DNA of 21,823 bases. It comes from a virus. Below the pieces are notes generated by a model. The model was not told the DNA's origin and searched no databases. It saw only the letters and a program-made list of their open reading frames with translations. The translations under genes were made by a program, and so were the position numbers. This document shows, piece by piece, positions 2,649 to 9,770 of this stretch (position 1 is the stretch's first letter; each line of letters begins with the position of its first letter). Where the stretch lies: positions 1-21,823 of the IMG/VR virus record IMGVR_UViG_3300030106_002853; one strand, 5' to 3'.

Positions 2649-2780
2649 ATGAAAGAACTATACGAACACGGAAAAATATCTAAGGAAGCATACGATGATT
2701 ATGTCTTCTATAAAAAGGCATTTTGGATTTGCTTTAGCTATGTGCTATGGGATCTATTTAGATCTTTTGGGTGGTTATGA
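2649..2780 (+). CDS. 43-residue membrane protein overlapping the nuclease gene
   Basis: The ATG at 2649 reads MKELYEHGKISKEAYDDYVF, then a hydrophobic, aromatic segment (AFWICFSYVLWDLF) and a short end. A GGGGGATTGAG stretch just upstream provides a Shine-Dalgarno. An ATG four bases earlier (2645) opens only a 12-codon frame. The stop overlaps the next start as ATGA (2777-2780), a classic coupling arrangement. The protein is predicted to be a small cytoplasmic head plus one membrane span; function is unknown. Confidence is moderate because of its size. Confidence 0.55.
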   Translation: MKELYEHGKISKEAYDDYVFYKKAFWICFSYVLWDLFRSFGWL

Positions 2781-3199
2781 TGTACGAGTACAACTGTGAA
2801 ATATTACGAGTAGTAGATGGAGATACAGTCGATGTCTCGATTGATTTAGGATTTGACATTTCTTACAAAAGCCGTGTTCGTTTATACGGCATCGACACCC
2901 CAGAGTCTCGCACCAGAGACAAAGATGAAAAAGCAAGAGGTTTGATGAGCAAAGAATACTTGATTGATGAGCTCTCAAAAGGTCAAGTTGTCATCAAAAC
3001 ACACAAAGATAAAAAAGGTAAATTCGGAAGAGTTTTAGGCGAGATGTATGTCGGTGATCGTAATATTAACTTGATGATGGTTGATGATTTTTTAGCTGTT
3101 GAATACAAAGGTCAAAGCAAGAAAGAAATAGAGGAAGAACACATCAAGAACAGACAAACACTAATAGCAAAAGGAAATTTTGACCCAGATAAGATATGA
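2777..3199 (+). CDS. Staphylococcal nuclease-like (thermonuclease, SNase) enzyme
   Basis: The SNase OB-fold is readily recognised. Counting from the ATG at 2777, it has VVDGDTVDV (Asp14, Asp16), VRLYGIDTPESR (Arg35, Asp40, Glu43), and the FGRVLGEMYV segment carrying the second catalytic Arg. These match the calcium-binding and catalytic set of micrococcal nuclease, so it should be an active Ca-dependent phosphodiesterase cutting DNA or RNA. The protein is about 140 residues and has no signal peptide, so it acts in the cytoplasm unless the membrane protein encoded just upstream tethers it. I prefer the ATG at 2777 (ATGA overlap with the upstream stop) over the in-frame GTG at 2771. Possible roles are host DNA degradation for nucleotide recycling, or processing during infection. 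The stop overlaps the next ATG by 4 bases. Confidence 0.9.
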   Translation: MMYEYNCEILRVVDGDTVDVSIDLGFDISYKSRVRLYGIDTPESRTRDKDEKARGLMSKEYLIDELSKGQVVIKTHKDKKGKFGRVLGEMYVGDRNINLMMVDDFLAVEYKGQSKKEIEEEHIKNRQTLIAKGNFDPDKI

Positions 3200-4317
3200 A
3201 GAAGTATATTCCATTGTTTTTTATGTTTTTCTTTGTGAATGATTCACAAGCAGATCAGACTGGTGACTGTACTGCTGGTTCTCAGTATTGTGAGCAAAAC
3301 TCGATGACCACGACATCGGCTACTACTACAACCAATACAAATACAAACACCAATACAAACACCAATACCAATACCAATACCAATACAAACACTAATACCA
3401 ATACCAATACTACAACCACTACTGGAACAAATACTAATACCAACACCAATACAAACACCAATACCAATACCAATACATCTACTGCTACAAACACGAACAG
3501 CAACACGAATAACAATACTTCAACTTCGACTGCAACAAACACAAACAGCAATACAAATACCAGTACATCGACTGCGACCAGTACAAACAATAACACCAAT
3601 ACAAATACATCAACGAGTACAAACACAAACACAAACAACAATGTAAATACTTCGACCAGTACGAACACAAATAACAGCACATCGAACAATACGAATACAA
3701 ATACGAATTTAAATACTTCTACATCGAACAATACTAATAAGAATGTTAATGAATCGACTTCTACATCGAATGTTCAGACCAACAATAAAAATGTAAATGA
3801 AAACAAAAGCACATCTGATAACACCAATAGAAATATTAATGAGTCAAAATCTGAGCAAACTATTAATCAGAACATTAAAACTGAAGCACCGCCTGCTTCT
3901 GCGATTGCACCAAGCATCATGAGTTATAGTCAAGATCTTTGTACTGTAGGTCGTTCTGGCGCGTTTCAAGGACAAGTATTTGGTTTATCGGCTGGAAGAA
4001 CAGTCAGAGACGAAAACTGTGAACGATTAAAATTAGGTAAATACCTATACGACATGGGCATGAAAGTCGCAGCAGTTGCCATTATGTGCCAAGATGTAAG
4101 AGTTTTTAGTGCCATGTATATGGCAGGCACTCCTTGTCCGTATGAAGGAAAAATAGGCGAAGAAGCAAGATCAGCATGGGCTGCTAACCCCAAAGATCGA
4201 CCAGATTACAAAGAAGCGAAAGCCAGCTATGTTGCCAAGTGCGTTAGAACAGAAAACTCGGCTGGACAAAATAAATCAAGACTGACTTGTAAGCGTGAGT
4301 TTGATAAGGGCAGTTAG
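3196..4317 (+). CDS. Secreted Thr-Asn repeat protein with Cys-rich C-terminal domain
   Basis: The protein has 373 residues. It starts MKKYIPLFFMFFFVNDSQAD, a Sec-type signal peptide with likely cleavage after SQA. Residues 25 and 32 are Cys. Residues about 43-225 are a low-complexity tract dominated by alternating Thr and Asn, becoming Ser/Asn-rich. Residues about 238-373 form a distinct globular domain with six Cys (249, 275, 298, 314, 349, 365) and motifs QDLCTVGRSGAFQGQVFGLS and CERLKLGKYLYDMGM. The even Cys number (eight) after export suggests disulphides in the periplasm or outside the cell. I have seen this C-terminal domain in other marine phages, always without function. The start overlaps the nuclease stop (ATGA). 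A linker spanning periplasm or peptidoglycan, a spanin substitute, or a virion spike are all possible; none is shown. Confidence 0.85.
   Translation: MKKYIPLFFMFFFVNDSQADQTGDCTAGSQYCEQNSMTTTSATTTTNTNTNTNTNTNTNTNTNTNTNTNTNTTTTTGTNTNTNTNTNTNTNTNTSTATNTNSNTNNNTSTSTATNTNSNTNTSTSTATSTNNNTNTNTSTSTNTNTNNNVNTSTSTNTNNSTSNNTNTNTNLNTSTSNNTNKNVNESTSTSNVQTNNKNVNENKSTSDNTNRNINESKSEQTINQNIKTEAPPASAIAPSIMSYSQDLCTVGRSGAFQGQVFGLSAGRTVRDENCERLKLGKYLYDMGMKVAAVAIMCQDVRVFSAMYMAGTPCPYEGKIGEEARSAWAANPKDRPDYKEAKASYVAKCVRTENSAGQNKSRLTCKREFDKGS
3334..3720 (+). repeat. In-frame AAY-ACN hexamer repeat encoding Asn-Thr
   Basis: A degenerate six-base repeat (AAT or AAC followed by ACN) runs through the gene, purest at 3334-3477 and decaying towards 3720 into Asn/Ser/Thr codons. 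Third positions vary, so protein rather than DNA sequence appears conserved. Because the unit is two codons, slipped-strand copying changes length without breaking the frame. Confidence 0.85.
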
Positions 4318-6589
4318 TCTATTTGCATTATTATTTGTACCTACAGTCAATGCAGGTTATATCTATGAGGCGAATCAATCTTTAATTGATTTAACGAGCG
4401 AAAGTAACACGACCAATATGGGCGTTGGCGATGACCAAGTATCGTCTGCGTTTAATTTAGATTTTACATTTACATTTTATGGTGAAGATTTTACATCTGC
4501 TCGAATGGCAACCAATGGCTGTTTACACTTTGGGTCGTCAGGAAGTTATTGTAATGACTACACACCTGATCCTTTGCCTGAGATTACATATACCCTATAT
4601 CCTTTCTGGACTGATTTAATACGAGACAATGGCTCAAAAGTTCTCGCCAAAAATTTTACCGACAAATCTGTTTTTGGTTGGTATAACCTACGAGAATATA
4701 ATCGAGGCAATACTGACAATTCGTTTGAAGTCATACTTTGGAAGTCAGATGACAGTTTTGAGTTTAGATATGGCGCCTTGAACATCATCAATCACGATGT
4801 ATTGATTGGCGAACAAGGTGCATCGGATGAACTTTACACATATTTGTTTTACGATCAATGTGGCAAAGGAACAACAAATGCGACTGGAACATGTGTAAAT
4901 GCAACTTGGAACGCATCTGCTTCGAATACTTTGCTAGAAAACGGTGGTAGTTTGTATGGCGTAGGCTCTGGTAACGGATTGGATTGTAGCAATCCTCTAA
5001 ACGATACCGCATGTACTGGCTATCAAGCAGCTTTTTTAACTCAACAGTGTGATTTAGATGGATTGTATTCTACTCAATGTCCTAACTATTGGGATGACTT
5101 GTTTGATTATGAGTGTGCTTTGGACTCGCAGTATTCGCCAGCTTGTGCTGGATATATGGTCGAAACTTTTGTCGAAGATTCCCATTACCAAGAAGACATG
5201 TTCGGCTATGACAGCTTTGAAGAAGATCAGTATGGATATTATGATCCCTATGAAGAAGAAATTTATTTCTTTGAAGAGGACCCTGTATATATTACTGAGC
5301 TACAAGGGATAGATTTTTATGAAGAAGAGTTATATTTTGAAGAAACACTATTCTTTGAAGAAGAATATTTCGATCCTTACATTGAAGAATTTAACTTAAC
5401 ACCAGAACAAGAGCTAATTACATTAAGTTATATCGAAGAAGAATTATATATCGAAGAGATATATGAAGAAATTTTAATCGCAGATGAGTTTAGACAAATA
5501 AATCAAGACTTGCCTTTACTTGATGATGTTTTAATGGATCATTTTGAACACGAAGAATTGATAGAAAATTTTATTGATGAAGAAACAATAGAATATTTAG
5601 AGTTTGAAACCATAGAAGAACTGGAGGAATGGTTTGAAGAAGAAGAAACAGAAGAAATACTCGAAGAACTTGCTGATTTGTCTGTTGCTGAAGATGGAGA
5701 CTTGGAGGATTCGGAGACAGTTGAAGAAGAGAGCCAAGACAGAGAAGAAACTGTCGAGCTTGTTGTCGCGCAGGATGAAGAGAAGAAAAGCAACAAAAGA
5801 GCAGAACAATTAAATGTCGTTGCTAACACAATTAGGGCAGCGAGCAACAGCGTAAGCGGTACAACTGCTGGCACCTCTGCGCAGTCTACTGGTACATCTA
5901 TTTCATCAGGAGGCTCCTACGCGTCTTCTGTGGCTTCTGGTGGCGTTTCTAACCCCACTAGCACAGCAGTAGCTAGTTCAGCATCAGGAGGCGGTATAAG
6001 CACCAGTAATTCTCCTAGCATCTCAGCTCAAGTTGCAAGTTCTGCAATGCAGACTCAACAAGTGCTTAGTTCGTTTAGTGCTGACAGCAGTTTTGGAAGT
6101 ACAATGGTTTCGCAAAACACAGCAATCGGTGGCGCAACAGACACGCAAGCAACAACAGATGGTGGATCTTCCACAACTACCACAGTGGCAAATACGAACA
6201 GTAGCGTTTCCAGCAACACAGGAAGTGGGTCTGACAACAGCATTGACGATAGTATAAGCGGTAGCGATACATCAGGACAGTCAGATGCAGATGTAATAGC
6301 AGAACAAATCGTTGCACAAAACATGCAAGAACAAAAAGAAGAGCTAGAACAACAGCAACAAGAAACTGGTGAGTATGCAGACGAAACACAATTAATTGCA
6401 TACATGGGCTTTGTGCAAGGCTTTGATGGCTATCTTCAGACAAGCATACCTGAGCAAGACACTTGGTATGAACCAAAAGATATTTATGCTAATGTATTAT
6501 TGCCAGACAACAACAGCGCTTTTGTCGGTTTGTACGGTAAGAGCTTGAATGATATGAACGGCTTGATAAACATGCAACCAAATTTATAG
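4295..6589 (+). CDS. Secreted nidogen-like protein with Cys repeats and acidic domain
   Basis: This 764-residue protein has a GTG start inside the end of the previous gene (23-base overlap). Residues 1-20 are a Sec signal peptide ending VNA. Residues about 22-190 resemble the NIDO (nidogen extracellular) beta domain: FTFTFYGEDFTSARMATNG, LYPFWTDLI, and later FEVILWKSDDSFEFRYG. Residues 231-290 hold three Cys-pair repeats of about 21 residues (C231/C240, C252/C262, C274/C284) with a C-x-GY or C-PNY signature. Residues about 295-500 are extremely acidic, rich in Glu with Tyr/Phe/Ile. Residues about 515-690 are a Ser/Gly/Thr-rich linker, and the last 70 form a separate domain (MGFVQGFDGYLQ, DTWYEPKDIYAN). 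NIDO domains occur in extracellular adhesive proteins, so surface binding or matrix interaction is inferred. A virion adhesin is an alternative. Confidence 0.8.
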   Translation: MSLIRAVSLFALLFVPTVNAGYIYEANQSLIDLTSESNTTNMGVGDDQVSSAFNLDFTFTFYGEDFTSARMATNGCLHFGSSGSYCNDYTPDPLPEITYTLYPFWTDLIRDNGSKVLAKNFTDKSVFGWYNLREYNRGNTDNSFEVILWKSDDSFEFRYGALNIINHDVLIGEQGASDELYTYLFYDQCGKGTTNATGTCVNATWNASASNTLLENGGSLYGVGSGNGLDCSNPLNDTACTGYQAAFLTQQCDLDGLYSTQCPNYWDDLFDYECALDSQYSPACAGYMVETFVEDSHYQEDMFGYDSFEEDQYGYYDPYEEEIYFFEEDPVYITELQGIDFYEEELYFEETLFFEEEYFDPYIEEFNLTPEQELITLSYIEEELYIEEIYEEILIADEFRQINQDLPLLDDVLMDHFEHEELIENFIDEETIEYLEFETIEELEEWFEEEETEEILEELADLSVAEDGDLEDSETVEEESQDREETVELVVAQDEEKKSNKRAEQLNVVANTIRAASNSVSGTTAGTSAQSTGTSISSGGSYASSVASGGVSNPTSTAVASSASGGGISTSNSPSISAQVASSAMQTQQVLSSFSADSSFGSTMVSQNTAIGGATDTQATTDGGSSTTTTVANTNSSVSSNTGSGSDNSIDDSISGSDTSGQSDADVIAEQIVAQNMQEQKEELEQQQQETGEYADETQLIAYMGFVQGFDGYLQTSIPEQDTWYEPKDIYANVLLPDNNSAFVGLYGKSLNDMNGLINMQPNL

Positions 6590-6597
6590 GAGTGAAT

Positions 6598-6963
6598 ATG
6601 GATTGGTTCCAAAATAAAACAACACAGCTTATTGCTTTAGCTGGGATAGTTTCCACATTGGCTGGATTCGGTTATACAGGCGCAACTTATGTAAACCGTA
6701 TAGAAAACCTTGAGTCAAAAATGACTCGTTATATTAATGAAATAGATGCTTTGGCAGATCAAGTTACAGCACTCGACAAGAATGTTGTTGCAGTTGGTGA
6801 GCAAATTAAATCTTTAAATGTCGAAACACAGGATTTAAGTCCAATCAAAAATGACATTGTTGCAATCCAAACAAGCATCGCAGGTATTAACTCAAGTATT
6901 GACTCTATGTATGATGATGTGCAGAGCTTAAAAAATAAAAATGACAATCCACTAGCAAACTAA
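6598..6963 (+). CDS. N-terminally anchored coiled-coil membrane protein
   Basis: The start at ATG 6598 is chosen because AGGAG (6588-6592) lies five bases upstream; the earlier in-frame GTG at 6592 overlaps that Shine-Dalgarno. The protein has 121 residues. Residues 9-31 form one membrane segment (LIALAGIVSTLAGFGYTGAT); residues 33-115 are a continuous heptad-rich helix, without Cys. The topology of membrane anchor plus long helix is shared by phage spanin-like and many marine-phage proteins labelled only as having a TM helix. No lipobox or partner gene is visible, so a spanin assignment is not justified. It closes the coupled secreted-protein cluster, separated from the 764-residue gene by only eight bases. 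Confidence 0.75.
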   Translation: MDWFQNKTTQLIALAGIVSTLAGFGYTGATYVNRIENLESKMTRYINEIDALADQVTALDKNVVAVGEQIKSLNVETQDLSPIKNDIVAIQTSIAGINSSIDSMYDDVQSLKNKNDNPLAN

Positions 6964-7834: not shown

Positions 7835-8509
7835 GTGGCATATTTGATTAGCAACATCCCACACTTTAAGTGTTGGGTCAGAAGAGAGTTTACTCATAAC
7901 CATGAAGCATATCATGATGAGTATCTTCACGCATTGGCTATAGCAGTCAATACTGTTCCAGATCGTTCACTGAGTTTTCATGTAGTCTTTACAGGATGTG
8001 AGTCTGATTGTGAGGACAACGATGAGCCAAATGTACATGGTGGAGCAATGTGGGCGAGATTACCGATACAAGCCATGGTTGCTGATATTCCTATGGAAGA
8101 TTTCCCAGAGCCCATGCAAGATCACATTGCACAGCCTTGGGATTGCGAGTCAAGAGATCATGCGGTAGTCGTATTGGATAGAGTCAGCTCTTCACCATGG
8201 CTTTGCAAAATAGATGGCGAGTTTTACACTGGACAATATTTATTTACAGTCGATTATACAAATTCTGATATTGCAGATGATTCAGCACAACACAAACAGT
8301 CACATGTCTTGTACATCACTGAAGACTGCGAGTTGCGTGGTAATTTAGTTGCTTTGCCAAATAATAGGGTCAGAGCCACAAGTCCTGCTCTTTGGGTCAC
8401 AGGCGAAGGAGCGCCTGATTTTAAACCATCTCAATGGAAACATTCAGCCGAACAGCATGAAAGCTACCTTGACCCATCTATCACATTTGATAATCTATAT
8501 GAGGAATAG
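7835..8509 (+). CDS. Conserved 224-residue phage protein of unknown function
   Basis: The GTG start is supported by the N-terminus MAYLISNIPHFKCWVRREF, which I recognise as the conserved beginning of a family in many marine phages. No strong Shine-Dalgarno is present. The protein is rich in His, Cys, Trp and acidic residues: FTHNHEAYHDEYLHALAIAV, TGCESDCEDNDEPNVHGGAM, PWDCES, WLCKIDGEFYTGQY and WKHSAEQHESYLDP. The density of His, Cys and Asp/Glu could form a metal site, but no known catalytic motif fits. It has no signal peptide or membrane segment, so it is cytoplasmic or in the virion. Its setting among basic mini-proteins and ahead of holin candidates gives no clear clue. It is acidic overall, in sharp contrast to its neighbours. 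Confidence 0.8.
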   Translation: MAYLISNIPHFKCWVRREFTHNHEAYHDEYLHALAIAVNTVPDRSLSFHVVFTGCESDCEDNDEPNVHGGAMWARLPIQAMVADIPMEDFPEPMQDHIAQPWDCESRDHAVVVLDRVSSSPWLCKIDGEFYTGQYLFTVDYTNSDIADDSAQHKQSHVLYITEDCELRGNLVALPNNRVRATSPALWVTGEGAPDFKPSQWKHSAEQHESYLDPSITFDNLYEE

Positions 8510-8759: not shown

Positions 8760-9143
8760 ATGAGTGAAGAAGAGCATTACGGAAGTCCTAGATTTGGTGG
8801 CGACCTCAGCCGAAACGAAGTCGAGATCGACCTCAACAAATTTATGGCTTTGCTTCAAGAAAAATCAGAATTAAAAGATCGAATAAGAGAGCTCGAAGAC
8901 GAGAAAAACGACAACCCATATCAAAGGTTTATTTTCGTTGCACAAGCAGTCGATGCATGGAGGATAATCCCAAGAGCGTTTCTTGGTATATATATGTATC
9001 TTTTGTATTACACTGTCATGTGGTTTATGGATTTGCCAGACCCAACCTTCGAACAATCAGGCTTGATCTCTATTGTTGTTGGTAGTGGGGCAGCTTGGTT
9101 CGGATTGTATGCAGGCACACATAAAAAAGACGCTAAAGAATAA
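8760..9143 (+). CDS. Putative holin, two transmembrane segments
   Basis: This 127-residue protein has AAGG just upstream of the ATG. Residues 27-49 form a charged coiled-coil helix. Residues about 72-91 (RAFLGIYMYLLYYTVMWFM) and 100-118 (SGLISIVVGSGAAWFGLYAG) are membrane segments joined by a short DLPDPT turn, and the tail is basic (THKKDAKE). Two spans with a charged C-terminus is a common holin layout, and this DLPDPTxEQ/AAWFGLYxGT type is often annotated as holin in marine phages. Holins form membrane holes that release endolysin. No endolysin is recognisable nearby, so the assignment rests on architecture. Confidence 0.65.
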   Translation: MSEEEHYGSPRFGGDLSRNEVEIDLNKFMALLQEKSELKDRIRELEDEKNDNPYQRFIFVAQAVDAWRIIPRAFLGIYMYLLYYTVMWFMDLPDPTFEQSGLISIVVGSGAAWFGLYAGTHKKDAKE

Positions 9144-9329: not shown

Positions 9330-9770
9330 ATGGGCTTTCCCTTCGAGATTATCACAATGCTCGGATCTACTCTATTGAGTAGTCTTCTTAGTATCTGGTC
9401 ACAAAGCAGAAAAGCAAAAGCTGAGGAGCAAAAATTGTTGATTACCAGAGGCGAGTTTGAAATGAAAGCAAAAAAACAATCTCTCGATCATGGATTAAAA
9501 GACAAAGGTTTTGCTTGGACAAGAAGGATTATCGCCCTGACTGCGATATTTGCAATCGTTTTATTGCCAAAACTTGTGGCTGTATTCTATCCAACTGTCG
9601 ATGTGACAGTTGGGTATACAAATTGGCTACCCGGTTTTATGTTTTTTAGAGAAGGTAGAGAAGTATTTGAATGGGTCACTTTTCAAGGTTTAGTTATTAC
9701 ACAATTAGACACAAATTTAGTTTCTGCAATCATCGGCATGTATTTCGGTGGTAGCTTGGTAAAAAGGTAA
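9330..9770 (+). CDS. Three-transmembrane holin-like protein
   Basis: The protein has 146 residues. Hydrophobic segments lie at about 4-23, 65-87 and 118-141, with a highly charged helix (28-60) between the first two. The block AWTRRIIALTAIFAIVLLP and the end IGMYFGGSLVKR resemble three-span phage or gene-transfer-agent holins (the 3TM holin family). This is the last gene before the packaging module. It may be the main holin, with the two-span protein upstream acting as antiholin or a second pore, but which is which cannot be told from sequence. Confidence 0.65.
   Translation: MGFPFEIITMLGSTLLSSLLSIWSQSRKAKAEEQKLLITRGEFEMKAKKQSLDHGLKDKGFAWTRRIIALTAIFAIVLLPKLVAVFYPTVDVTVGYTNWLPGFMFFREGREVFEWVTFQGLVITQLDTNLVSAIIGMYFGGSLVKR

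Follow-up and report, generated by a model that had tools for sequence, protein, structure and literature searches.

The question raised by this locus is whether five adjacent genes in a 21.8 kb virus record of IMG/VR, analyzed over its whole length and referred to here as the window, form a single unit, and at which step of infection such a unit might act. The initial annotation had proposed a coupled cluster (genes A to E, Table 1) acting together at the host envelope. The window is near the HTVC023P-type pelagiphages, because its terminase is 58–63% identical to those of phage 023Pt_psg01 and Pelagibacter phages HTVC027P and HTVC023P. The start/stop overlaps on which the proposal was based are all present: the stop codon of A (2778–2780) overlaps the ATG of B at 2777, the stop codon of B (3197–3199) overlaps the ATG of C at 3196, and the GTG start of D (4295) lies 22 nt inside C. 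The gap between D and E is likewise present, with the stop codon of D ending at 6589 and the ATG of E, preceded by GGAG, at 6598. Comparison with relatives indicates that substitutions in all five ORFs cluster at codon position 3 (counts at positions 1/2/3: A, 94/66/188; B, 782/448/2039; C, 6296/8844/24454; D, 8093/5000/17593; E, 798/331/3297), and all five evolve like coding sequence.

Table 1. Features of the window, all on the plus strand, with the evidence for each.
Feature	Position	Strand	Evidence or status
Gene A, 43-aa peptide, hydrophobic C-terminal half, lineage-local	2649..2780	+	5/65 clusters; third-position bias
Gene B, SNase-family nuclease, optional neighbor, without signal peptide	2777..3199	+	PF00565
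Gene C, 373 aa: signal peptide, Thr/Asn-rich repeat, four-cysteine domain	3196..4317	+	module core
C signal peptide, ~20 aa	3196..3255	+	read by eye; hydrophobic N-terminus recurs in relatives
C Thr/Asn-rich low-complexity region	3331..3885	+	TRF arrays; predicted disordered
C Cys domain	3901..4200	+	alignment with invariant residues; AF2
Gene D, 764 aa, exported, adhesin-like; GTG start, 22-nt overlap with C	4295..6589	+	module core
D NIDO-like N-terminal domain, residues 22–190	4358..4864	+	RemA 8gl6 match; AF2
D Cys/Tyr/Pro repeats, C..D..YS..CP.Y type	5015..5170	+	sequence
D acidic stalk, residues 293–500, net charge ~-75	5171..5794	+	sequence
D Ser/Thr/Gly-rich linker	5795..6274	+	sequence; AF2
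D coiled coil and conserved C-terminal module ending QPNL	6275..6586	+	hhalign
Gene E, 121 aa: N-terminal TM, coiled coil, C-terminal NPLAN	6598..6963	+	module core
E transmembrane segment (approximate)	6628..6678	+	hydropathy
E NPLAN motif, C-terminal	6946..6960	+	recurs in relatives
phrog_10198 membrane protein, frequent neighbor of C-D-E	8760..9143	+	neighborhood counts
Membrane protein of holin-like neighbor family	9330..9770	+	Pfam holin: no match

Comparison across relatives separates the five genes into a core and its neighbors. C, D, and E are one strictly co-conserved three-gene module of marine phages (hereafter the trio), whereas A and B are optional neighbors, so that the coupled cluster proposed initially holds for its last three genes only. 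A five-gene system was rejected because, of 65 sequence clusters, 17 have the SNase within 1.5 kb upstream of C and 5 have the 43-aa peptide there. A sequence scan with D returned 60 relatives in IMG/VR, and a scan with the C-domain alignment returned at least 597 viral stretches in IMG/VR; 24 relatives of C were found in genome assemblies, mostly metagenome bins. Where D loci have sufficient flank, C is present upstream in 43/43 and E downstream in 49/49. Viewed from C, D is adjacent in 109 of 109 loci, defined as distinct C sequences with at least 3.6 kb downstream, in a sample whose viral loci are the best 80 of at least 597 and lean to close relatives, broadened by genome-bin and isolate loci; every one of these 109 loci also has a small downstream ORF with NPL or NPM near its end, which carries an N-terminal transmembrane (TM) segment in 108. 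In isolate phages, queries with D or E match only records that also carry C.

The trio has the same gene order in HTVC023P (gp45-48), HTVC115P (gp54-52), HTVC033P (gp46-44), HTVC202P (gp24-26), EXVC032P Baldr (1-4), the myovirus Mosig EXVC030M (202-200), an uncultured Votkovvirus (T7-like), and the Roseobacter phages CRP-207 and CRP-810; these isolates span podoviruses, a myovirus, the HMO-2011-type group (PMC9038755), and a T7-like phage. No match to C was obtained in HTVC027P and 023Pt_psg01, nor in the HMO-2011-type isolates CRP-212 and CRP-345, in contrast to HTVC033P and CRP-207. Because the trio is present in unrelated SAR11, Roseobacter, and uncultured phages while some of their relatives gave no match to C, it is accessory and mobile, a distribution more in keeping with a fitness module than with a core function.

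Of the optional neighbors, B matches the SNase family (PF00565, 2.3e-13, 51 bits against a cut-off of 21; phrog_452, 2.8e-40), and its catalytic residues are intact as first described (DGDT, RLYGIDTPE, and GR motifs). Nearly all SNase relatives lack a signal peptide, and for this reason the nuclease is not considered an envelope protein. Downstream of the trio, the phrog_10198 membrane protein lies within 1 kb of it in ~70/149 loci, often abutting C or E, and homologues of the second membrane protein in Table 1 lie within 2 kb in 27/149. Elsewhere in the window, 1 kb upstream of the cluster, positions 106–1659 encode a tail fiber whose C-terminus is a chaperone domain of the S74 endosialidase type; a 54-aa membrane ORF at 2464–2628 contains VIAC, which resembles a lipobox, and then a Pro/Thr stretch, and is possibly a small lipoprotein; and the ORF at 7835–8509 matches phrog_3704 (ferredoxin) and no Pfam family, whereas its HTVC023P homologue gp44 is annotated PurM.

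The Sec signal peptides initially assigned to the 373- and 764-residue proteins are discernible by eye, and hydrophobic N-termini recur in relatives of both. That of C is MKKYIPLFFMFFFVNDSQA, with cleavage before an aspartate (D), and that of D is MSLIRAVSLFALLFVPTVNA, with cleavage before a glycine (G). Both are of Sec type, and no convincing lipobox is found in either protein, the pattern matches falling within the hydrophobic core or beyond the point of cleavage. It follows from these sequences that C and D would be exported by Sec to an oxidizing compartment and that E would be a membrane-anchored coiled coil.

The length of C differs among relatives, and in the window its repeat region comprises a period-6 array of 24 copies (3331–3476) plus 42/48-bp arrays as detected by TRF. 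In the AF2 model the repeat region is disordered and residues 270–372 mostly exceed pLDDT 90; the Cys domain is predicted to form a beta hairpin between C249 and C275 followed by helices carrying C298 and C314, the helical part being of high confidence. All four cysteines are conserved in alignments of relatives. A PDB fold search with C yielded no match better than E 0.9, and a Pfam search yielded no curlin or other match. The profile match is to phrog_20531 (1.4e-11), which has the cysteine domain in common with C; it is a family annotation without function and without linkage to D and E. The C proteins of loci L158, L160, L162, and L170 and HTVC115P gp54 end in a short, very hydrophobic tail with an uncharged end, perhaps a membrane anchor. 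CRP-810 gp53, which carries an OmpA-family annotation, is homologous to C and matches no Pfam family.

More distantly, a structure search of viral models links C to gp51 of the Achromobacter phage phiAxp-2 (E 1.8e-3), which itself matches phrog_20531 (1.4e-5). Four Achromobacter phages, phiAxp-2 (L259:44598-45710) and those of loci L260, L261, and L262, encode an exported pair, a Gly/Ser/Asn-rich protein followed by the C-like Cys-domain protein, in differing genome backgrounds and in regions without lysis genes. These loci indicate that the C family also pairs with exported partners outside lysis cassettes. In HTVC027P, gp13-gp17 (L068:8492-10448) comprise a TM coiled-coil protein, the exported Cys-containing gp14, a second TM coiled-coil protein, a small protein, and an M15 endolysin; this set looks like a counterpart of the trio, and gp14 has at least 210 relatives in IMG/VR.

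Among relatives, D usually overlaps C, most often by 22–30 nt, and D starts with GTG in 25 of the 26 relatives having the 22-nt overlap. Its NIDO-like domain is the best conserved part of the protein and is modeled by AF2 as beta-rich, mostly with pLDDT 80–95. The NIDO assignment made at the outset is probably right but faint: Pfam NIDO (PF06119) does not match D of the window and matches 3 of 59 D relatives with a best E of 0.0019, and a match is obtained to the NIDO-domain adhesin RemA (PDB 8gl6 chain; 7e-8 from the single sequence, 5e-12 from the profile). The likeness to RemA, a Bacteroidota type 9 secretion adhesin, is limited to this N-terminal domain; D is phage-encoded and lacks the remaining RemA parts. 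In the uncultured Votkovvirus and the relatives of its D, the head is CBM_4_9-like instead of NIDO (a weak match, 0.0089). The Cys/Tyr/Pro repeats, of which D of locus L164 has many copies, coincide with weak matches to PF09717, under the cut-off, in 28 of 59 members. The acidic stalk is poorly conserved and has low pLDDT, and a PDB search with the D model, mostly disordered, returned nothing useful. The C-terminal module aligns with that of D types ending instead in QY (hhalign, 99% probability), whereas hhalign of the NIDO-type C-terminus against the CBM-type and Roseobacter-type gave 3.6% and 1.9%, which is not significant; the unity of D across these three types is therefore supported only by gene position and a short motif. 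At four loci (L156, L160, L170, and L172) D is followed by another exported protein, ending CIA-, with a likeness by eye to domains of the fimbrial or spore-coat-U type.

For E, the charges flanking the TM segment are ambiguous as to orientation, and the match to phrog_739 is weak (1.9e-4). Two Roseobacter-phage homologues, CRP-207 gp73 (L070:3292-3873) and CRP-810 gp51 (L074:5162-5584), are annotated lysozyme; both show a TM segment, a coil, and an NPL tail, and the annotation is apparently a misnomer.

The surroundings of the trio bear on when it might act. GH24 lysozyme homologues lie within 2 kb in ~46/149 loci and holin-like genes in ~31/149. After clustering, a peptidoglycan hydrolase or holin-like gene is found within 2 kb in at least 25 of 48 clusters at 90% identity and at least 9 of 24 at 80%, these being lower bounds from few seed sequences. 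Among neighbors of 29 diverse loci, Pfam identified Phage_lysozyme 6 times, SNase 5 times, and M15 and GTA holin once each, and Rz-like spanins number 4. An amidase gene also adjoins the trio, and in HTVC023P an M15 gene directly follows E. In 23 loci a profile search placed Rz-like genes close to the trio, many of them accompanied by an overlapping or adjacent lipobox protein; the window, which is a fragment, has no Rz-like gene. A late position of the trio is probable from the adjoining lysozyme, M15, amidase, holin-like, and Rz genes. The trio was rejected as a spanin substitute because in those 23 loci it has Rz-like spanins as neighbors, several of them paired with a lipoprotein. The lysis role suggested earlier survives in part: the trio frequently falls within the lysis region, but with Rz-type spanins alongside it is not simply a lysis effector.

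C, D, and E probably act jointly on the host cell envelope around lysis, and the proposed site of action can be kept for these three, more plausibly located there than in the virion, but not for the nuclease. E would sit in the inner membrane with its coiled coil in the periplasm, and its NPL tail would dock the conserved C-terminus of D, whose acidic stalk would present the NIDO head (elsewhere a carbohydrate-binding-like one) to an envelope ligand, with C as a disulfide-bonded exported partner. Made late, the complex would occupy or mask ligands or receptors at the surface of the dying cell and of its debris; released progeny would then not be lost to these sites, and new virions would be kept off. 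That C-D-E masks or occupies surface ligands around lysis is a tentative reading, which we favor over its rivals as a possibility. It is supported by the co-conservation, the signal peptides without lipobox, the conserved cysteines of C, the RemA-related head of D and its exchange for a CBM_4_9-like domain, the probable late position, and the mobile, accessory distribution. Several points argue against it. D has no visible route across the outer membrane, so its head may stay inside until lysis. The good conservation of the NIDO head is not what would be expected of a typical receptor blocker caught in an arms race. Neither C nor D is a lipoprotein, and Llp and Cor are of different build. The charges of E leave its orientation ambiguous. 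Receptors are not directly addressed by the gene set.

The same evidence can be read in other ways. The trio might instead help to breach the envelope, or time its breach, alongside holin, endolysin, and spanin, for instance as an additional complex disrupting the outer membrane or wall in which D bridges the layers and E is the inner-membrane end. The GH24, holin-like, and Rz counts given above, M15 directly after E in HTVC023P, the i-spanin outline of E (TM and coil), and the HTVC027P arrangement of exported gp14 between two TM-coil proteins just before M15 endolysin all accord with such a role, which is nevertheless rather unlikely given that Rz-type i-spanins, several with an adjacent lipoprotein, share cassettes with the trio, that the trio-less relative CRP-345 has its own spanin2-type protein and endolysin, that the C-like gene of Achromobacter phages is away from the lysis cassette, and that C and D lack a lipobox. 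If C and D were secreted or released, they could form a surface fiber or adhesive matrix gluing cells, debris, or virions; the adhesin-like D, the low-complexity repeats of C, the Gly/Ser/Asn-rich partner of the Achromobacter C relative, and the curli genes reported for HTVC023P-type phages (PMC9599517) are compatible with this, but Pfam and PHROG searches of neighbors found no secretion pore beside the trio, the C repeat is predicted to be disordered and C lacks a curlin or other Pfam match, and E ties the set to the membrane, so that we hold a matrix to be unlikely.

Superinfection exclusion, in which a periplasmic complex would block DNA entry or receptors for competing phages, would suit an exported, mobile set that is accessory in unrelated phages and has a C relative among non-structural genes of Achromobacter phages; it seems quite unlikely, since placement in the lysis region of many marine phages suggests expression that would be late for such a role, and Pfam and PHROG tie neither C nor D to a known exclusion protein. 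That the proteins are ordinary virion components with hydrophobic N-termini is highly improbable: tail-fiber and head-packaging genes do lie nearby in the window, but two independent Sec signals, the conserved cysteines, the TM anchor of E, the absence of the trio from close relatives, and the lack of a structural PHROG for C and D point elsewhere. The literature search found no virion proteome of a trio-bearing phage.

Extending the masking reading, C-D-E might be a new class of envelope machine, in which an inner-membrane coiled coil carries an acidic stalk across the periplasm and, on it, an adhesive head that can be exchanged (NIDO, CBM-like, or others). Many ocean phages would deploy this machine at lysis, controlling to what progeny and debris adhere; we regard this as doubtful. 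SAR11 and Roseobacter are among the most abundant bacteria of the ocean, and the trio genes of their phages have so far been annotated as hypothetical or apparently misnamed (lysozyme, OmpA). A strictly co-conserved exported set suggests that infection includes an as yet unnamed step at the host envelope. HTVC023P, with the trio, and HTVC027P, without it, both grow on host HTCC1062, and the question is thus testable now.

In the literature searched, which covered few subscription journals, no prior description of C-D-E as a set was found. Judged from its sequences, the set appears to match no described system found, having neither the lipobox of spanins nor the genes of curli. E shares with the two-component spanin Rz/Rz1 the i-spanin outline of N-terminal TM segment and coiled coil, as well as the lysis region; the lipobox outer-membrane partner is missing from the trio, and Rz-like genes are next door. 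The pelagiphage curli T8SS modules reported in phages related to HTVC023P (PMC9599517) are, like C-D-E, exported-protein modules moved between unrelated SAR11 phages. They differ in having csgF, csgG, and curlin, none of which gave a profile match in C, D, E, or the tested window neighbors (Pfam, PHROG) or in the neighbors of 29 loci (Pfam), and a curli relation was rejected. Phage-encoded envelope-modifying proteins are a known kind. Among them, Llp of T5 and Cor are small single proteins, Llp being a lipoprotein, that stop adsorption to host or debris. Like them, C-D-E is phage-encoded, would act at the envelope, and is accessory to virion production, a likeness by proposed role, and it differs in comprising three proteins without a lipobox; in the masking reading it would act as Llp or Cor do in blocking receptors, from unrelated parts.
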